DNA from: Bacteroidia bacterium
GTDB lineage: Bacteria; Bacteroidota; Bacteroidia; J057
Assembly (NCBI GenBank): GCA_033391075.1
Contig: JAWPMV010000001.1
Location: 7,688,001 to 7,752,000 of the forward strand
Direction: 5' to 3'
Length of the DNA stretch: 64,000 nucleotides
The notes beneath the pieces were generated by a model, which saw nothing but the letters and a program-made list of their open reading frames with translations, made no database searches and had not been told where the DNA came from. Shown piece after piece: positions 8,317 through 55,354 of this stretch. Position 1 is the stretch's first letter, and every line of letters begins with the position of its first letter. The position numbers were made by a program, and so were the translations under genes.

Positions 8317-11300
8317 ATGAGCCTCCATATCCCTGGTTATAAGCTTCAAGAACTGATTCGAGAAGGCCTGGAATCTTCTGTTTACAAAGCGATCCATCTC
8401 GCCAATGAAAGTACTTGTATCATCAAGGTGCTTCACTCAAGAGTGGGACTCCAGGCTTTGAGAAATGAGTTTGAATTGATTCAATGCTTATCTGATCTTT
8501 TTCCCTATTCTGCCTGGATAGATTTGGAAGATCGGATTTGCCTGGTGAGGAGTTTCGTAGAGGGAACCCGACTGCAAGAGATCTTGAAATCAGAGGAGAT
8601 CGGGATAGATTCCTTTATGGCATATGCCCGTTCTATTAGTCGGCAATTAGGCGAGATTCATGGGCATGGATTTATCCACCGGGATTTGAATCCTAATAAT
8701 ATTATTGTTACCCCGGAGGGAGAAGTCTTTATCATAGACTTTGACTTGAGTACCCGTTTGGACCTGCAACTTTTTTATCAGGGAAATCCGGAAAACCTCA
8801 GGGGAACCCTTCCTTATCTTTCTCCTGAACAAACAGGGAGAATGAATCGAAGGGTAGACTATCGAACTGATTTCTATGCATTGGGTGCGACGCTTTATCA
8901 TATGCTTTGCGGAAAGCCTATGTTTGAGAGTGAGAATCCAATGGAATTGGTTCATCACCATTTGGCAATTACTCCGACGAGTCCACATACCATCCGACCC
9001 GAGATTCCCCTATTTTTATCTCGGATCGTCTTGAAATTGCTAGAGAAGGATCCGGAGTCCAGATATCAATCTGTCTCCGGTATCCTTCACGATCTAGCCC
9101 TTTTTGAAAAAGACCTGACTCAGGCTTCAACGCTGGATGACCATCCCCTTGCCAGTAAGGATGTGTCTTCCCGATTTATTATTCCTGATCGCCTGTATGG
9201 AAGGGAAGAAGAACTTGAGCTCCTAAAAGTCAGCTTTGAACAGGTTTGCTCTCAGAGACAGCGCCTGCTCATGGTCTCAGGCCCTTCGGGTGTGGGAAAA
9301 TCAGCCCTGATAGGAGAGTTGTACAAACCTCTGGCACAAAGTCGGGGATTCTTTCTCAAGGGAAAGTTTGAATTACTTCAGAAAAATGTTCCTCACTTTG
9401 CCTGGGTGCAGGCCTTTAACCAACTGGCTGACCTTCTCCTTTCTGAAAGTGAAGAGGTGTTGGAAAGTTGGCGAAAGAGGATATTGAAGCAAATGGGCCC
9501 CGTTGTCGGAGTTTTGGTGAATATGGTTCCTCGCTTCGCCCAAATTCTGGGAGAACAGGAAGAAATCCCACAGAACAATTCGCAGGAGGCTCGTAGTCAA
9601 TTTGCATATGCAATGCGGCAATTTATGAAAGCCATGGCGAGCCCGAAACATCCCATGGTCATATTTCTGGATGATTGTCAATGGGGGGATTCTGCTTCTA
9701 TGGAACTCATCAAAAACCTCCTTGCAGATACGGATGATCATTGTTTGCTATTGATTACCGCTTACCGTTCAAATGAAGTCGGGGTAGATCATGTCTATAC
9801 CCAAATGCTGCAAGAGTTGGATAAAGAGCTGGCAAGTAATTTCCTGGGTCGAGAGGACTTATTGGAACCTATAAAAATAGAATTAAAGGACCTGATTGAG
9901 GCTGATATACAAAGTATGTGTATGGATATCCTCAGCCGATCCAGGAGAGAGGTAGAAGAGCTTGCAGGCCTGATTTATAAAAAGACTCGTGGAAATGCAT
10001 TTTATACCAAAAGATTTCTAGGGGCACTATATGAAAACAAACAACTAAGATTCAGTACAACTCAGGCCATTTGGGAGTGGCAGTTGGATGCCATCCGTCT
10101 AAGTGATGCTACCGAGAATGTGATCGAGTTGATGGGGGAGCAGTTGATGCAATTGCCGGAGGAAACCCTGGCTGTTTTGCAATTGGCTTCATGTGATGGG
10201 ACGGATTTTGAATTAGGAGCACTGGCCTTAATTCAAAATGAACATCTCTCAAAGCTTGAACAAGCATTAAGACCCGCTTTGCTGGATGGCTTCATCCGAC
10301 CCAAGCAATCCTTGCTCGTACAACAAGGAGATCGAAATAAGCCTGATTCTGTCAATCGCAACTTTTCTTTTGTACACGACCGTATCCTTCAGGCGGTATA
10401 CGAAAGTATTCCGGAAGAAAAGAAAGCGCGACATCACCTGAGCCTCGGCAAGTATATGCTGGAGCATCTTTCGGAAGAATTGAAGCGGGAGCGATTGTTT
10501 GATTTGGTCAATCAGGTGAACTATAGCCTGCAACTGGATGAGACGGAAATCAGTAAAGATCACCTTTTGAGTCTGAATTTTCAGGCAGGTAAAAAAGCCT
10601 TAAAGGCAACTGCATTTTCTCAGGCGTATGAGTATTTCAGTATTTGTCAACATCTGATCCCCGATGGACACTGGGATTCGCATTATAACCTGAGTCTTTC
10701 ATTATATCAGTCCCTCGCTGAGTGTGCGGCTATTATGGTCTTGGGGGATAAGTTGGATGAGTACCATGAGCAGATTGTGGAGCACGCCCGGGATCTTCTG
10801 GATACCGTAGATACTACCCTGCTTCGGGTGCGCTATTTATATGCCGCAAAAAATGATTTTGCTCAGGCAGGAGAAGAAGGCTTAATTCTTCTCAAGAAAT
10901 TAGGGATTGAAATTAATGCTGCTTCCGGTCAGGAGGAGATCATTGCCGAGATGGTTCAAACTCAGCAAGTTTTTGCTAATGTTGAGATTGAGAATGTCTT
11001 TGATCTTCCAGAAATGACTGACAAGGAGAAAATAGCCAGCATCCGTCTACTGCAGGCGATCATCAGCGTGGTTTTATTCTCCAATCCCAATCTCTTTCCT
11101 ATAGTCATTTTAAAATCGATCCGCATCCTCCTCAAATATGGAATGGTCGCTAGTGGCCAATATGCATTGTCCAGTTACGCGATCATTGTACTGGGGACGA
11201 TGGGTGATCTCCCTTCGGCAAAGCGATTGGAGACCCTGGTTCATCGTTTGGTGAGGGAAAGATATCCCCTGGAAAGTCGAGAAAATAGCCGAGCCCTCTT

Positions 11301-13734
11301 TAGCCTGGGCTTTGGGGTAAAACACTGGTTTTCCCATCTGAACGAATCCATCCTTCTTTGTAGAAAGTGTAGCCAGGTATCCAAGGAAATGGGAGATGTG
11401 GAGTATGCAGGATTTAATCTGAATCTAAGTGTTCAGTATCCATTGCTGAGTGGACATCCACTCAGTCAGGTTCAAGCTCAGATTCTTTCTGCACTTGATA
11501 GCCATAGGCAGATGAGCCAATATATGACCGCGAGTTTTCTTGAGGTTTTTATGCAGGCAATTGAAAATCTGATGGGAGAAAGTGAAGAGGTCCTGGTCTT
11601 GAAGGGAACAAGCTTTGACGAGGAGGAAAAATTAAAATTCTACCAGGAGGTGGGTAATTATTCAGGCATCGCGAATGTCTTTTTTCTCAAGACTATGATC
11701 GCCTGTTTGATGAACAGGCCTGAATTGAGCCTTGCTCTGGCTCCGCATATGTTGCCATGTTTGCCAGCGGTAATGGGTGCGCCTTATGTACCATTCTATA
11801 AATATTATCTGGGCGTCTCCTATTTTATGGCAGCTCATGTTGCCAATGGAAAAGAAAAGAAGAGTATCCTTACAGATGCTGAGGCAGTTATTGCTGAATT
11901 TAAATCCTGGGCGGAATTTGGTCCTGATAACTATGCTTCAAAATATGAGCATTTGCTGGCAGAAAAACTTTGGATAGAAGGGGAATATGGAGAAGCTAGA
12001 GAGGCTATGGAATCAGCTTTGGAAAAAGCAAGGGCCCAAAAATTTACGCACGAAGAAGCCCTGATTTGGGAAAGACTGGGACGCATGATGAAAAGCCGGG
12101 AAAAAAATATTCCCGCAGAGCATTACCTCAAGCAAGCCCTGGAAGCCTATCAAAAATGGGAAGCAAGCGCTAAAATTATAGCCCTGAAAGAAGAGTTCCC
12201 GGAATTGGGCCAGAGAAATATGGGATCCTCAGAACTGGAGAGCATTAAGACAACAAAGTCAAAATCTGCCAGTTCGGATTATATGCAAAATCTCGATATT
12301 CAGAGTGTTTTTAAGGCTTCAACAGCTTTGGCCAGTCAGATCAATTTCGATTATCTGCAAGAGAGTCTGATGAGGATTGTTTTGGAGAATGCAGGTGCAG
12401 AAAGGGGATACCTGATCATGAAAGAAGGGGATGGGTTCCAATTGATTTCCCAGGCGCAAATTGGAGAAACGGGATTCAAGCATTTCAAGATAAGCCTGCC
12501 AATGGATAGCGAAAGGAATCTGGCTATATCCGTTTTGAATTTTGTCCTGAAATCTCGAGAATTTGTGGTCTTAAACGATGCCCAAAGTGATAGTCGATTT
12601 ATTGCGGATGGATATTTGAAATCAGGAGCAGTTAAATCTTTGCTTTGCTTGCCGATCGTTCATAAGTCGGAAGTGAAAGGTGCATTGTATTTGGAAAACA
12701 ACCTGACCACCGATGCTTTTCAAAAGGAAAGAGTGGAGGTTCTTCAATTGCTTTCGGGCCAAATCGCTGTTTCTCTGGAAAATGCAGCTCTTTATGAAGA
12801 TTTGGAATCCAAGGTAATGGAACGGACTCGTGAAGTCTGGACCCAGAGTCAACAATTGGCAACTCAACGGGATGAGTTAGCTGAAAAAAATGATACGCTT
12901 GAAAATACCCTGGAGCAACTCAAATTTGCTCAATCTCAATTGGTCCAATCGGAGAAAATGGCCTCTTTGGGACAACTTTCGGCCGGCATCGCTCACGAAA
13001 TCAATAATCCTGTCAACTTCATCCTTAGTGGGATCAACTCCCTCAAATTGAACCTGAGTGAGGTTCAGGAGATTTGGACCGAAATGGAAAAACTGGAGGA
13101 TAATTTTAATGCGGAGCAGATGAAGAAAGTCACGGATTTGAAGAATGAACTGGATTATAATTATCTGATGGAGGAAATTGAATATCTGGCAGAAAGTATT
13201 CAAAACGGAGCCAAGCGTACCTCCGAGATCGTCAAAGGCTTGAGGACTTTCTCAAGAATGGATGAAGACGCACTCAAATTGGCAGATATACATGCAAATC
13301 TGGATTCTACCCTCCTGATGTTGCATTCTCAATACAAGGATAAAGTAAGTATAAACAAAGACTATCAGCAGATTCCCCTGATTGAATGTTATCCGGGTAA
13401 AATCAACCAGGTTTTTATGAATATTCTCTCCAATGCCATTCAGGCGATTCCGGAGAAAGGCAATATTCAAATCAGTACGAGAAAAGTGGAAGAGGAGGTC
13501 GAAATCCTGATTAGTGATGATGGTACAGGAATACCTCTGGAGGTCCAGACAAAAATATTTGATCCTTTCTTCACGACCAAAGATGTGGGAGAAGGGACTG
13601 GATTAGGACTTTCGATCAGTATGGGCATCATCAATGATCATAAGGGAAAGATTGTGATAGATAGTACTCCGGGTAAAGGAAGTACCTTTTCAATCGTTTT
13701 ACCCATTCGTCAGGCAAGAAACATAGAGCGTTAA
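8317..13734 (+). CDS. Hybrid Ser/Thr kinase - AAA ATPase - GAF - histidine kinase
   Basis: 1805 residues, soluble. Order: protein kinase domain (about 7-265; Lys37, catalytic HRDLNPNN at 121-128, DFD in place of DFG at 141-143; the glycine loop is degenerate); AAA-type ATPase (about 290-560; [10 protein letters not shown], Walker A GPSGVGKS at 322-329, [11 protein letters not shown] as Walker B); a long helical repeat region (about 600-1320); GAF (about 1335-1490); coiled coil; HisKA with phospho-His in [11 protein letters not shown] (near 1561); HATPase with [15 protein letters not shown] and TGLGLSIS. The same architecture occurs in cyanobacteria and some Bacteroidota. A receiver-cyclase starts 17 nt downstream and is the obvious phosphoacceptor. 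Confidence 0.93.
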
Positions 13735-30888: not shown

Positions 30889-31128
30889 TTATAATACTTG
30901 ATTGCTTTTCAGGATTTTCACTGATCGAATAAGCCTGAACACCCCATACGTAATCAAAACTAGCCCCACCAGGTAATTGAACTGGTCGGGATGGTCTTTG
31001 AAATATGTAAATTCAAAACTGAATATGTCACGAGGTGCTGGAAATAAGCGTTTGATTGCAATGAAAAGCCCTGATCCAATAAAAAAGATACTCATAAAGA
31101 GTCCTAAGTATCCAACGATTTTTTGCAT
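30889..31128 (-). CDS. Small membrane protein, 79 aa
   Basis: From ATG 31128 the product has two hydrophobic segments (IVGYLGLFMSIFFIGSGLFI and YLVGLVLITYGVFRLI). An in-frame ATG at 31215 would add 29 basic residues with no signal character; I prefer the short form. It is upstream of the secreted propeller-like gene on the same strand. Function unknown. Confidence 0.65.
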   Translation of the reverse strand: MQKIVGYLGLFMSIFFIGSGLFIAIKRLFPAPRDIFSFEFTYFKDHPDQFNYLVGLVLITYGVFRLIRSVKILKSNQVL

Positions 31129-31275
31129 AGCGGGGTTCCTGTATTTTTTAGTTCTTTCTTTTGTTTTGAATATTCGTGTTCGCTTAGGGTAAAGCTGTGT
31201 CCGAGAAATTAGCAATAGGAAGGCTTAATCCCTAATTAGCATTTGTGAAAACTTTTACATTTTGGCACAATAGGT

Positions 31276-31309
31276 CAAAATTCATAGAAAAGAAACAAAA
31301 TTCATAGAA
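31276..31309 (+). repeat. Two 14-bp direct repeats, 20-bp period, upstream of the caspase gene
   Basis: CAAAATTCATAGAA at 31276-31289 and again at 31296-31309, exact. Spacing of two helical turns, 69 nt before the start codon, is what a regulator dimer bound on one DNA face would need. The regulator is unknown. Confidence 0.6.
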
Positions 31310-31377
31310 TTCTGTGCTATATTTATTTAACAACTGCTCTCGGATTATAGCTTTTTTTATTTGAGAAAAGAACGTCT

Positions 31378-33366
31378 ATGAAACAGATATGGCTCATACT
31401 TGGAGTTATTCTCTGTACCTTTAATGTATCAGCGCAAGATGTTTTTACGCAGACTTTCGGTGGTAAACAAAACGAACATGGGATCGATATTGTTGAGACC
31501 CGGGACAATGCCTATCTATGTCTGGGGACCACTGATTCCTATGGTAAAGGGAAAAATGATATCTGTGTATTCAAACTGGATGCTTCCGGTCGGGTAATCT
31601 GGAGGAAAGTGCTGGGAGGAACCTATCACGATCGCGCCAATGATTTACTCGAAACCCGTGACGGTAATTATGTAATTGCCGGATACACCAAAAATGAAGA
31701 CAGTGGGCACAATGATGCCTGGGTCTTTTCTCTCAACCGACACGGAGAATTGATGTGGTCTCATACCTATGGAGGGAATAAAGAGGATCACGCAAGAGCT
31801 ATTACCCAAACTTCTGATGGGGGCTTTCTCCTGGCTGGTTTTTCTGAATCCTATACCAAAGGCTCCAGAGATATCTGGGTGATCCGACTCAATGCAGTGG
31901 GAGAAATGCTTTGGCAAAACAATTATGGTGGAAAAGGAGCTGAGGAAGCCTATGATGTCGTCCAGACCCGCGATGAAGGCTTTATTATTGGGGGATATCA
32001 ACGCTATGACAGAGAGCAATTGAAAGCCGATATGTTGCTGGTCAAGATAGATCGCAATGGGAAGGGGATCTGGCGAAAATCATTTAAGGCAAAAGGAAAT
32101 GATGTGATAGAAAAGGTAGTTGAGACAAATGGAGGGGATTATTTGGCTGCTGGTTGGGCCTATTCAACAAACAACAAAAGCCTGGATGGGAAATTGTTGA
32201 AAGTGAGCCCTGGTGGAAGACTAATATGGGAAAAATATTACGGAGGTGCCGGTAAGGATGCGATCTATGACATAGAGGAAAGCATTGATGGAGATTATGT
32301 GATGGTAGGCCAAACAGCTTCCTACAGTAATTCAGATGATGCCTGGTTGCTTAAAATCAGTTCTCAGGGACAAATCAGGTGGCAAAAAAGCAGCAGTGGA
32401 AAGAAAGATGATTATGCCCATGCGGTAGCAGCTACCCGCGATAGAGGCTTTGCCCTAATCGGAGGAACCAAAAGCTACAGCAAAGGAGGAAGAGATCTGC
32501 TTGTTTTCAAAACGGATGCAAAGGGCAATTTCAGCCAGGGCAGTTCACTTATTGCCCAAAACCTGCCGGGAGGAGAAAAAACGCCTGAATTTGATGATGA
32601 AAATAATTCCTCCAAACCCAACCTCTATGTGTTGGCCGTTGGAGTTTCTCGCTATGAAGATCAGACGGTCAGTCTGAAATATGCGCATACGGATGCCAGC
32701 GCTATGGCGGATCAGTTTGCTCGCCAGCAAGGCAAAGTCTTCAACAGAGTCCAGGTGCGCAAACTCATGAACAAACAGGCTACCCTGGTAAATATCCAAT
32801 CCGGAATTTCCTGGCTGGAAGAGAAAGCTGGACCTAAAGACATGATTCTGATGTTCATTTCGGCACATGGAGCTTTGGATGATAAAGGAAGTTTATACAT
32901 TCTCCCTACAGATTTTGAAGCGAGCAACCTTTTCGCAACAGCTCTCAATATCCAGGACCTGACCGAAGGAGTAGGAGGGAGCCTGAGTAAAAAAATGATC
33001 TTCCTCGATGCTTGTCATAGTGGGCAGTCCGCCTATGACCTGCTCGAATTTGCCAATATCAATTCCTTCAACCTCAATGCAGCTGTCGAGGATATGGTAA
33101 AGCAGGAGTCCGGTTTGAGTGTGATGACTTCTTCCAGTGGAAAAGAGTTTTCCTATGAAAATCCAAAATGGGGACATGGTGCCTTCACCAAAGCTTTATT
33201 GGAAGGATTTAGAGGGGCCGCGGACTTCAATAAAAATGAGGTAATAAGTCTGGGCGAATTGAACCTTTATGTGATGGAGCGGGTTAAAGAATTGACCTCC
33301 GGTAGACAACATCCATATATGCCCATCAATCTCTTTGGGAACATACCGCTTTTCAGACTAGAATAG
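31378..33366 (+). CDS. Secreted seven-repeat propeller with C-terminal caspase domain
   Basis: 662 residues. Signal peptide ending NVSAQ. Residues about 22-385 are seven repeats of about 50 residues, each opening near YGG and ending with a G-x-x-x-W motif (GRVIW, GELMW, GEMLW, GKGIW, GRLIW, GQIRW, GNF), which fits a seven-bladed propeller. Residues about 415-660 are a C14 caspase-like domain with the His497 (FISAHGA) and Cys546 (LDACHSGQS) dyad. The family cleaves after basic or acidic residues in other bacteria; here the substrate is unknown. Likely exported to periplasm or surface. Confidence 0.9.
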   Translation: MKQIWLILGVILCTFNVSAQDVFTQTFGGKQNEHGIDIVETRDNAYLCLGTTDSYGKGKNDICVFKLDASGRVIWRKVLGGTYHDRANDLLETRDGNYVIAGYTKNEDSGHNDAWVFSLNRHGELMWSHTYGGNKEDHARAITQTSDGGFLLAGFSESYTKGSRDIWVIRLNAVGEMLWQNNYGGKGAEEAYDVVQTRDEGFIIGGYQRYDREQLKADMLLVKIDRNGKGIWRKSFKAKGNDVIEKVVETNGGDYLAAGWAYSTNNKSLDGKLLKVSPGGRLIWEKYYGGAGKDAIYDIEESIDGDYVMVGQTASYSNSDDAWLLKISSQGQIRWQKSSSGKKDDYAHAVAATRDRGFALIGGTKSYSKGGRDLLVFKTDAKGNFSQGSSLIAQNLPGGEKTPEFDDENNSSKPNLYVLAVGVSRYEDQTVSLKYAHTDASAMADQFARQQGKVFNRVQVRKLMNKQATLVNIQSGISWLEEKAGPKDMILMFISAHGALDDKGSLYILPTDFEASNLFATALNIQDLTEGVGGSLSKKMIFLDACHSGQSAYDLLEFANINSFNLNAAVEDMVKQESGLSVMTSSSGKEFSYENPKWGHGAFTKALLEGFRGAADFNKNEVISLGELNLYVMERVKELTSGRQHPYMPINLFGNIPLFRLE

Positions 33367-52219: not shown

Positions 52220-55200
52220 ATGAAAACTTTCCTTAGTATTCTCAGCTTCTTTATATCCATTTCACTCTCAGCCCAAAATGTTGAATTTGATTGGGCTTAC
52301 ACCCTCGGAGGTCGAAATAGTGATGCTGCCAAAGCGACAACTACAGATGCCAGTGGAAATATTTACGTGTATGGATCTGTGCAGGATACCATAGATCTGG
52401 ATCCGGGACCGGGATCACAAGTGGTCAATATTCCGCTGGGCCAGCCTCAGCTTTTTATTCAGAAATTAGATCCCTCAGGCCAGCTATTATGGGCACATGC
52501 ATGGATTCAGGATTTTCTGGGAGATACGATTCCTGGAGAATTGTTGCATGTAGATGATTGGGGAAATGTGTACCTGGCAGGTCTGTTTTCCGGAACTGTC
52601 GATATTGATCCTGGCCCCAATACGGTCAACCTGACTTCGGCCTCCGCTTCAAAAAATGATATTTTCCTGCTAAAACTGGATGCTAACGGAAATTTTAAAT
52701 GGGCAAAACAAACAGGAGGAGCTCAGGACGACAGGGTTGCCAGCCTTACGTCTGATCAGCAAGGGAACCTCTACATGACAGGAAATATGTATGGAGCCGT
52801 TGATTTTGATCCGGGAGCAGGAACATTTACACTGGTGGGTGATCCTTTGGGAGATGCCTTTATCCAAAAGCTGGACTCCTCGGGAAATTTTGTTTGGGCC
52901 AAAGAAATTGGGAATGCAAATTTTGACGGGATACGAACTTCGATAGTCGATAGACAAGGGAACCTCATTCTGAGTGGGAGTTTTATGGGCAGTCTGGACA
53001 TCGATCCGGGAACGCCCCTCGTACCTCTCAATTCTACCAATAATACCCGCGACATTTATATCCTAAAACTGGATCCTGCAGGAGATTTCCTTTGGGCCAG
53101 AAGCATAGAAAGCTCTGTTTACTATGAAAAGGTAGCTTTGACTGTTGATGGGGCAAATGAAATTCTGGTCGCTGCCCGCTTAAGGGGTACCGTTGACCTG
53201 GATCCCGGCCCTAATACGATGAATGTTACAGCAGTCAGAAATGGAGCAATGTTTTTGCAAAAGCTGGATCAGGGCGGAAATCTGCTGTGGGCTAATACGA
53301 TCGGAGATATCAATTCCTCTACCGATTTTCTCTCGGCCGAAAGAATAGATGTGGATAAGGAGGGAAATATTTATCTCGAAGGTGGATTTACGGGAAATAT
53401 AGACTTTGATCCGGGTCTGGGAATTGAGACCCTTTCCGCACAGTTTGGCCAAACTTTTCTGGTCAGCTATAATCCGGATGGCACCTATCTCTGGGGAAGA
53501 AGTTTGGATGTGACAAATTCAGGAGTCACAGGCTTTACTATAGATGTAGCTAAAAATATATTGCTGGGAGGACGATTTTCCAGAGATTTTGATGTAGATC
53601 CGGGTGCGGGCAATTTTAGCCTTTCAGCTATATCTGGAGGTCGAGATATTTTTATGCTGAAATGGAAACAGGATAGTTGTTCTGGATTAGCTGCCACCAT
53701 AGATCAGGTCGATGAACCGGCTTGTGGAACCCCCGGCCTGGTAGTTGGTTCTGCAGTAGGCGGATCGGGTAATTATTCCTATAGTTGGAATACGCTTCCC
53801 CCAGTTACGAAGAGATTCATACAACCTGATTCACCCGGAACTTTTGTGTTCACAGTAAGTGATGATGCCGGATGTAGCGATAGCAGTCGTGTTATCGTTG
53901 GGGGGCCAGCGAATCTCAGACCGAGTGATCTGAATATCAATGTTACTTCAACAGATTATCGCCCGGGAAGGACATCTACCATTTGGGTAGATGCCTATAA
54001 TGATGGTTGTGCTCCGCTGGATGGAGAAGTGGTTCTGATTCTGGACAATTTCCTCACCTATTCCTCCTCTGTTCCAGCACCTGATTCGATAAATGGGCAA
54101 AGCCTGATTTGGTATTTCAATGATTTAAATGATACCTCGGGACACTTTCTGGCTCGTGTGCGTGCTACAGTAAGTACACAGGCCGGGATCGGAGATGAAG
54201 TTTGTGTTCGCTCTGCAATCCGTCAAAAAGGCGGCGGGAACAATACGAAATTCAACAATCGAGGCTATTGCCGCGACGTAATCAATAGCTATGATCCCAA
54301 TGATAAACGAGTATTTCCGGAAGGAGTTTGTGAAGAAGGTTTTATCGAAAATGATGAGTGGCTCACCTATACTCTTCGCTTTCAAAATACGGGGAATGCA
54401 TCAGCCATAGATATATTCTTGCTGGATACCCTGGATGCCAATCTGGATTTGAGCTCTTTTCGGGTGGTGGGCCAAAGTCATGAGCCTATGATTACAGAAG
54501 CTTTGCCCGATCGGGTGATGAAGTTTCGCTTTGATAATATCTATTTGCCCGACAGTATCAGTGATGAACCCAATAGTCATGGATATGTGATTTTTGAGAT
54601 TCTTCCGCTTCCCAATCTTCCTGACGATACCAGGATTCTCAATAGCACAAGTATTTATTTCGATTTCAATAAGCCGGTAAAAACCAATACCGTACTGAAT
54701 ACCATTGCAGATTCTTTACCGCAAATTGACACCACTTTCCTTCAGGTAAATACCTGCGAAAGTTATATGCTAAATGGTCGAACTTATACCGAATCAGGTA
54801 ACTATTTACAGGTGCTGTCCCGAGACAGGGATTGCGATAGTGCAATTGTACTTACTCTTCAAATCCTGCCGGAATTGGATACAACTGTGAGTCGGATCGG
54901 TTCTGTTCTTACTGCAAATGCAGGAGGTGCTCATGGATTGGATGTGGATTATCAGTGGGTGGATTGTGACAATGGGAATTCCGCAATTGATGGAGCTACC
55001 CAGCAGACTTTTAGTCCACAAACAAATGGAAATTATGCAGTTATGCTCAGTCGGGAAGATTGTATGGCTATGTCGGCTTGTATCCAAGTGATGAATGTAG
55101 GCATCGATCCGGATTTTCAATCAGCGATACGTTTTTATCCCAATCCTACAGCATCAGAAGTGGAAATAGAATTGGGGAAATTTTATTCCTCTATAGAAGT

Positions 55201-55354
55201 AGAACTTCTGGATATAAGAGGAAGGCAAATACAAGTCCATAGCTTTGATCAGCTTGATTCCTTTAGCCTAAAACTGCAAGGAGAAAAAGGAATGTATTTC
55301 TGTCGGATAAAAGTAGATCAAAAAGAAGCTATTTTGAAACTGGTGAAGCAGTAA
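52220..55354 (+). CDS. Large type IX cargo protein with seven-bladed SBBP-like propeller
   Basis: 1044 residues. Signal peptide ending SISLSAQ. Residues about 22-495 are seven repeats, each with a D-x-D-P-G motif (DLDPGPGS, DIDPGPNT, DFDPGAGT, DIDPGTPL, DLDPGPNT, DFDPGLGI, DVDPGAGN) and a KLD-x-x-G-x-x-x-W end. Next come an Ig-like SprB/PKD-like stretch (FVFTVSDDAGCSDSS), a DUF7619-type domain (YDPNDKRVFPEGVC, YIYFDFNKPVKTN-like end), and the sorting tail (IRFYPNPTASEVEIE, LLDIRGRQIQ, KGMYFCRIK). A surface or secreted protein. Confidence 0.9.
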   Translation: MKTFLSILSFFISISLSAQNVEFDWAYTLGGRNSDAAKATTTDASGNIYVYGSVQDTIDLDPGPGSQVVNIPLGQPQLFIQKLDPSGQLLWAHAWIQDFLGDTIPGELLHVDDWGNVYLAGLFSGTVDIDPGPNTVNLTSASASKNDIFLLKLDANGNFKWAKQTGGAQDDRVASLTSDQQGNLYMTGNMYGAVDFDPGAGTFTLVGDPLGDAFIQKLDSSGNFVWAKEIGNANFDGIRTSIVDRQGNLILSGSFMGSLDIDPGTPLVPLNSTNNTRDIYILKLDPAGDFLWARSIESSVYYEKVALTVDGANEILVAARLRGTVDLDPGPNTMNVTAVRNGAMFLQKLDQGGNLLWANTIGDINSSTDFLSAERIDVDKEGNIYLEGGFTGNIDFDPGLGIETLSAQFGQTFLVSYNPDGTYLWGRSLDVTNSGVTGFTIDVAKNILLGGRFSRDFDVDPGAGNFSLSAISGGRDIFMLKWKQDSCSGLAATIDQVDEPACGTPGLVVGSAVGGSGNYSYSWNTLPPVTKRFIQPDSPGTFVFTVSDDAGCSDSSRVIVGGPANLRPSDLNINVTSTDYRPGRTSTIWVDAYNDGCAPLDGEVVLILDNFLTYSSSVPAPDSINGQSLIWYFNDLNDTSGHFLARVRATVSTQAGIGDEVCVRSAIRQKGGGNNTKFNNRGYCRDVINSYDPNDKRVFPEGVCEEGFIENDEWLTYTLRFQNTGNASAIDIFLLDTLDANLDLSSFRVVGQSHEPMITEALPDRVMKFRFDNIYLPDSISDEPNSHGYVIFEILPLPNLPDDTRILNSTSIYFDFNKPVKTNTVLNTIADSLPQIDTTFLQVNTCESYMLNGRTYTESGNYLQVLSRDRDCDSAIVLTLQILPELDTTVSRIGSVLTANAGGAHGLDVDYQWVDCDNGNSAIDGATQQTFSPQTNGNYAVMLSREDCMAMSACIQVMNVGIDPDFQSAIRFYPNPTASEVEIELGKFYSSIEVELLDIRGRQIQVHSFDQLDSFSLKLQGEKGMYFCRIKVDQKEAILKLVKQ

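Follow-up and report, generated by a model that had tools for sequence, protein, structure and literature searches.

The window analysed here, a 64,000-nucleotide stretch of a Bacteroidia genome, encodes a predicted exported caspase joined to a beta-propeller. The gene, P0001 (31378..33366, + strand), is an open reading frame with an ATG start that specifies 662 aa, in which a Sec-type signal peptide is followed by seven propeller blades and, at the C terminus, a caspase domain. Our computations gave the fold of the propeller, the family of the caspase, an intact catalytic dyad, conserved predicted pocket acids, a rule-based export signal and a conserved gene neighbourhood. The reading that we prefer, tentatively and at slightly short of an even chance, is that P0001 forms a unit for regulated proteolysis or maintenance in the cell envelope together with two neighbouring proteins, P0002 and P0003, and that this unit has been inherited vertically within one Bacteroidia family.

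Architecture of the propeller-caspase protein

The repeats of P0001 occupy residues 22-388 (31441..32541, + strand). Blade limits were set by inspection at residues 22-75, 76-127, 128-179, 180-232, 233-284, 285-335 and 336-388, giving seven units of 51-54 aa, and the mean pairwise BLOSUM62 score among them was 71.5, compared with -8.3 for 200 shuffles (sd 1.9, maximum -2.8). The earlier note had described seven repeats that share a W-ending edge motif; the count of seven stood, but only the first six blades have the edge Trp, blade 7 carrying NFSQ at that place. Structure prediction of the repeats, which the note had proposed as a check, was carried out with AlphaFold2 using a 3-sequence alignment that included two distant relatives. 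The resulting model contains 28 strands in seven four-stranded blades (pLDDT 82.0, pTM 0.84), and on this model the repeats fold as a seven-bladed beta-propeller. The best solved match to the model was CylK (7fh7; Z 46.1, rmsd 2.8, 365 residues, 23% identity), with all five CylK entries falling at Z 45.4-46.1 and rmsd 2.8-2.9 over 360-366 residues (Foldseek 4.6e-23), and other propeller proteins scoring Z 33.2 and below. CylK is titled a Friedel-Crafts alkylating enzyme and not a protease, and the likeness of the modelled P0001 propeller to it is one of fold. P0001 had no match to PF00400 or to any other WD40-named Pfam family up to E=1, and it scored below the cut-offs for Kelch (weak matches, 18.8 bits versus 50), delta-60 repeats (TIGR02608, 45 versus 76.5) and DUF5122 (PF17164, 15.6 versus 27).

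Residues 1-19 (31378..31434, + strand) form the predicted signal peptide, MKQIWLILGVILCTFNVSA|QD, with cleavage predicted at VSA|QD, before Gln20, and without a lipobox by eye. The hydropathy of this N terminus is 3.03, and a hydrophobic stretch followed by [AS]Q is found in all ten rows of the family orthologue alignment (A1). Rule and conservation thus both predict the Sec export signal that the earlier note had read here. Pfam gave no Por_Secre_tail match in P0001 up to E=1, and the caspase domain runs to the end of the protein; as a positive control, the same library does detect the sorting tail in another window protein (52220-55354, + strand). That protein is 1044 aa long and also has a weak SBBP propeller repeat and DUF7619; it is a propeller protein carrying the type IX sorting tail that is absent from the P0001 caspase.

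The caspase (Peptidase C14) domain spans residues 414-662 (32617..33363, + strand) and was recognized both by Pfam (PF00656, E=1e-16, 61.8 bits versus a cut-off of 21.4, residues 418-648, profile positions 4-223 of 233) and by profile matches. Repeats and protease are encoded by the one 662 aa reading frame, which bears out the fusion described earlier. A single-sequence model of full-length P0001 gave a moderately folded propeller and left the caspase unfolded (pLDDT mostly 20-50), so the caspase call rests on profile evidence and not on a superposed model. When solved chains were searched with A3, a profile of 17 bacterial caspases, it matched metacaspase-4 (5e-15), metacaspase-1 (3.5e-14), GSU0716 (3e-11), which we take to be a bacterial protein, TbMCA2 (3.6e-11) and MALT1 (2e-5); the alignments viewed were those of metacaspase-4 and metacaspase-1. 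The matched metacaspase chains align to P0001 over the caspase region only. A narrower profile of the family (A2) had no PDB match at E up to 0.01, and its matches at E up to 10 mixed metacaspases (0.069 to 1.1) with unrelated Mcr-1/Mcr-2 chains.

By alignment, the His/Cys dyad reported in the earlier note is intact. His497 (SAHG; 32866..32868, + strand) and Cys546 (DACHSG; 33013..33015, + strand) are in register with the HG and DxCHSG of solved metacaspases (4f6o, 6w8s), are invariant in the ten rows of A1 and are present in 17/17 rows of A3. The two predicted S1-pocket acids, Asp439 (32692..32694, + strand) and Asp544 (33007..33009, + strand), are likewise invariant in A1 and found in 17/17 rows of A3, and Asp439 aligns with the Asp of GCxND in 6w8s. 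An EF-hand-like loop at residues 616-627 (DFNKNEVISLGE; 33223..33258, + strand) is conserved in A3, with Asp at position 1 in 15 of the 17 rows and Glu at position 12 in all 17. Sixteen loci were tried as candidates for A3, of which L121 and L057 were lost to the motif and L059, an exported caspase relative with MORN repeats, was left out; four of the final rows are family orthologues of P0001. Since most of the outside rows were picked by their HG/DxC motifs, only Asp439 and the EF-hand-like loop are independent evidence within A3.

Two acidic positions of TbMCA2, Asp95 and Asp211, accommodate basic residues according to the passage of PMC6426788 used here, which also gives two conserved acidic S1-pocket residues as a criterion for orthocaspases. 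P0001 has such a pair in Asp439 and Asp544, which by our own mapping would correspond to Asp95 and Asp211. Orthocaspases are the bacterial group marked by a basic P1 and the lack of p10; with respect to p10, the observation for P0001 is a PF00656 match over profile positions 4-223 of 233. The orthocaspases and metacaspases TbMCA2, Yca1, AtMC4 and GSU0716 resemble P0001 in combining a His-Cys dyad with two predicted pocket Asp residues. We predict that the C terminus of P0001 is a caspase-type (C14) cysteine protease domain that would be active, and because the pocket acids and the EF-hand-like loop are conserved, it would be expected to be specific for Arg or Lys and to bind Ca2+. Identity to the family orthologues is 60-65% in the caspase domain (8 compared) versus 41-53% over the whole protein (9 compared), making the protease the most constrained part of P0001.

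Distribution and descent of the fusion

The fusion was found in 11 of the 13 genomes of the family. Nine copies, including the one described here, are full length, one (G001) is cut by a contig end and one (G012) is in pieces, interrupted by gap letters and stops, another contig carrying a further piece of the caspase. The split G012 apart, there was one strong match per genome; G004 and G005 had no fusion match at E up to 1e-60. When 100 relatives were searched, 90 matched P0001 somewhere, and outside the family the matches listed covered the propeller or the caspase and never both. Across a sample of 395 genomes from the class, the high-scoring ORFs of about 670-730 aa all came from family members, and two further genomes (G034 and G229) had ORFs of 744 and 727 aa with weaker scores. 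The survey for the same fusion suggested in the earlier note was therefore productive inside the family and, in the searches made, recovered none outside it. No caspase-domain relative was encoded by any of 22 pattern matches on viral contigs, and a scan of genome contigs returned two relatives, both propeller-only.

A tree of 34 propellers, which used part of the propeller loci and skipped L021 and L026 for length, placed the 11 caspase propellers in one clade (support 100/99) and the OmpA-fused propellers in a separate clade (support 100/100). The caspase propellers group with tail-bearing propellers and not with the OmpA type, the support for the tail-bearing group being only 83/46. Among the nine propeller loci viewed, eight have a sorting-type tail after the propeller by eye, and the ninth (L030) has OmpA. 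By eye, the propeller tree resembles in outline an rpoB tree of 18 rows, from which the G009 fragment, G014, G021, G022 and G024 were left out and for which G011 and G018 gave no match. Given the single clade of caspase propellers and the family-only distribution, the fusion appears to have formed once and to have been passed on vertically since.

Proteins with repeats similar to those of P0001 and a C-terminal OmpA domain (PF00691, 1.6e-18) in place of the caspase occur in the same order (L091 and L093; own copy at G000:C1:3572264-3574180) and make up the separate clade. When the propeller-OmpA protein was searched for in the 13 family genomes, eight matched near the whole query, G004, G006 and G007 matched most of it, and G011 and G012 matched part. 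At L091:3773-9325 and L093:4299-9871, which belong to one genus, a P0002 orthologue lies directly between the propeller-OmpA gene and a gene that by eye is mutL-like, and a small membrane-type protein is encoded upstream. These loci suggested a domain swap at one locus, from propeller-OmpA to propeller-caspase, an idea that we rejected because the family also carries propeller-OmpA and the propeller types are separate clades. The adjacency of propeller-OmpA and P0002 in one genus (two genomes) is possibly a chance link.

The earlier note regarded export as exceptional for a bacterial caspase, a view that did not survive comparison with other genomes or with the rest of this one. The 9.49-Mb genome that carries P0001 has 16 C14 matches in 15 proteins, six of which, P0001 included, have signal-peptide-like N termini. 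By a crude hydropathy index, for which internal Met starts were also tried, the best 10-residue values were 2.6-3.0 in those six and at most 1.73 in the other nine. Contig C1 of this genome also holds two adjacent caspase genes (L052:4003-11276), one of them encoding 1699 aa with two C14 matches, and the C14 gene of L051 is located about 15 kb from this pair; two caspase genes (L054, L055) lie on a separate contig, C4 (368 kb), possibly a second replicon.

In the class sample, scored with at most six candidates per genome, 43 of the 395 genomes (9 in the family) reached an E of 1e-20 or better with the family caspase profile. We inspected 25 class caspase loci and obtained an ORF containing the motif at 21, among which two pairs represent the same place; by eye, several of these ORFs start with a signal peptide. 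Five of the loci were searched with Pfam. L095 (1028 aa) has WD40 repeats far above the cut-off (PF00400, 144 bits, 4.9e-43), L094 (1343 aa) has ANAPC4_WD40 and MORN_2 over the cut-off, L108 (742 aa) matches WD40-type models below the cut-off only, L119 has MORN repeats and L114, from a family genome, has protease domains and a weak F-box-type match. L095, L094 and probably L108 are built as P0001 is: by eye they start with a signal peptide, which is followed by propeller repeats and a C-terminal C14 domain with the dyad and an EF-hand-like loop. The propellers of L095 and L094 are of the WD40 type, whereas that of P0001 is a CylK-like seven-blade without a WD40 match. As far as the part of Asplund-Samuelsson 2012 drawn on here goes (PMC3501461), WD40 is the commonest partner domain, present in 73 (10.9%) of 671 prokaryotic metacaspases, a single N-terminal helix, possibly a signal peptide, is present in 46 single-domain metacaspases, and Haliscomenobacter hydrossis has 28 metacaspases. 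Exported caspases, with WD40 or MORN repeats in other families of the class, and propeller-caspase fusions are already known kinds. What is new here, as seen so far, is the union of a CylK-like propeller and a caspase in one family and its gene neighbourhood; the open-licence PMC literature searched contained no description of an exported propeller-caspase of the P0001 type, which is weak evidence of absence.

The linked genes P0002 and P0003

Two genes on the opposite strand stand head-to-head with the caspase gene. P0002 (29407..30885, - strand), the divergent neighbour, encodes a predicted exported protein of 492 aa, whose signal peptide was recognized by eye (hydropathy 3.21). Between it and P0001 lies P0003 (30889..31128, - strand), which encodes 79 aa with two hydrophobic segments; the Met start at 31128 is our choice, the ORF being open from 31215. 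The divergent intergenic region (31129..31377), read from the sequence, presumably contains promoters for both sides. A scan for sigma-70-type promoters stayed near the shuffled expectation (10 sites versus 8.4 expected), and a terminator scan gave 6 sites versus 3.9 expected.

P0002 is linked to the fusion in 8 of the 11 fusion-bearing family genomes, with P0003 in the same place in all eight (the present genome, G001, G002, G003, G006, G007, G009 and G010). As a gene-order control, 18 other window genes were searched for in the same loci. In G002, G006, G007, G009 and G010, with 17-19 kb covered in each, none of the 18 was nearby. The same held for the 13.7 kb covered in G012, a genome that has also lost the link to P0002 and P0003; the contigs of G001 and G011 were too short for this control. 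Five other window genes recur near the caspase gene in G003 and one, an E2 gene, in G008, so gene order is not wholly lost. The linkage of P0001 with P0002 and P0003 is kept although the surrounding gene order is mostly lost. In one genus, g9 (G008, G011 and G012), P0002 lies on other contigs and P0003 has no match at E up to 0.01; the three genes are therefore not an obligatory unit.

Orthologues of P0002 occur in all 11 genomes with the fusion (E at most 3.4e-159) and in all nine genomes from elsewhere in the order (E at most 7.6e-84), with identities of 48-60% within the family and 30-37% in other families of the order. No fusion was seen in those nine genomes, which argues for a role of P0002 apart from the fusion. 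G004 and G005 gave only weak partial matches to P0002 (7.9e-8 and 1.1e-16), and in the rpoB tree the two were grouped in 0% of 200 bootstrap trees. This pattern suggests two co-losses of the fusion and P0002, although well-supported rpoB branches alone do not force this, and both genomes are fragmented drafts (91 and 90% complete) in which one assembly gap could remove both adjacent genes.

P0002 had no Pfam match over the curated cut-off and none in NCBIfam or PADLOC up to 0.1. A P0002 profile had no match in the PDB up to E=1; in Pfam, P0002 itself matched nothing up to 0.1, and 1 of 20 members matched SBBP at 0.077. We discounted a match to a JAB-like toxin (Pfam E 0.22, 12.5 bits versus 21), and kinship between P0002 and the propeller was rejected, hhalign giving it a probability of 2.3%. 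P0003 had no match to PADLOC models up to E 0.1; its Pfam matches, to seven families and all below cut-off (best 0.0066, in a 108 aa reading), were discounted.

Candidate roles of the exported caspase

On the reading that we prefer, P0001 would leave the cytoplasm via Sec and, lacking a lipobox and a recognizable type IX sorting tail, would most likely stay in the periplasm. Its N-terminal propeller would most likely provide a docking surface, through which a substrate or regulator reaches the protease. The EF-hand-like loop may sense or need Ca2+, and the Ca2+-loaded caspase would cut after Arg or Lys. The exported P0002 and the small membrane protein P0003 would most likely be the working partners of P0001 in the cell envelope. 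That inheritance is steady and that the linked genes are envelope genes argues for regulated proteolysis or maintenance rather than attack. The stricter version, in which the three proteins form a dedicated envelope module built on a Ca2+-responsive, Arg/Lys-specific exported caspase that is targeted by its propeller and controlled by its partners, is possible but doubtful.

P0001 could instead be a general exported digestive or processing protease, its propeller binding a polymer or surface ligand and its neighbours linked by chance or by shared regulation. We consider this rather unlikely. Propeller matches are very common (90 of the 100 relatives), the caspase propellers group, at a support of only 83/46, with the tail-bearing type seen at eight of the nine viewed propeller loci, and extracellular protein degradation has been suggested for metacaspases of Betaproteobacteria in the portion of PMC4933709 drawn on here. 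The persistence of the link to P0002 and P0003 while the surrounding gene order is mostly lost points the other way, as does the failure to find in P0001 a sorting tail for release.

Execution of cell death, or killing of kin or neighbours, with P0001 directed at adjacent cells or at the surface of its own cell, would fit the intact dyad, and such a role is raised for extracellular metacaspases in the part of PMC3501461 used here. One strong match in 11 of the 13 family genomes (in pieces in G012), with descent vertical in outline, makes this reading improbable, as does the finding that P0001 scores above the cut-off for no T9SS sorting domain or toxin family and that P0002 and P0003 have no PADLOC match up to E 0.1. 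The fusion is present in most of the family (11 of 13 genomes), its propellers fall into a single clade and the searches made recovered no copy elsewhere, which disfavours a mobile weapon. The role in competition that the earlier note had entertained is disfavoured by the same steady presence, by the absence of a detected T9SS tail and by a propeller tree resembling that of rpoB.

Membership in a conflict or defence system, for instance the EACC1 or CATRA-associated caspase systems, is very improbable: P0001 does match a PADLOC caspase model (8.7e-13, in a scan of P0001-P0003) and the EACC1-type caspase NF047832 of NCBIfam (9.6e-24), but the former only at positions 1-149 of 453 and the latter with a score of 84 versus a cut-off of 140, the protein has a signal peptide, inheritance is steady rather than patchy, and eight neighbouring window proteins belong by Pfam to housekeeping or unknown families. 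Elsewhere in the window, a 1805 aa protein (8317-13734, + strand) combines Ser/Thr kinase, AAA_16, GAF and histidine-kinase ATPase domains.

In the papers drawn on here, bacterial caspases are treated mainly in connection with cell death, stress and conflict systems. If P0001, P0002 and P0003 do form an envelope module, the caspase of this family would serve a housekeeping function outside the cytoplasm and not one in cell death. A vertically inherited exported propeller-caspase with steady neighbours is a tractable case for caspase roles outside the cytoplasm, and two unnamed envelope protein families, the order-wide P0002 and P0003, gain in it a first testable partner.
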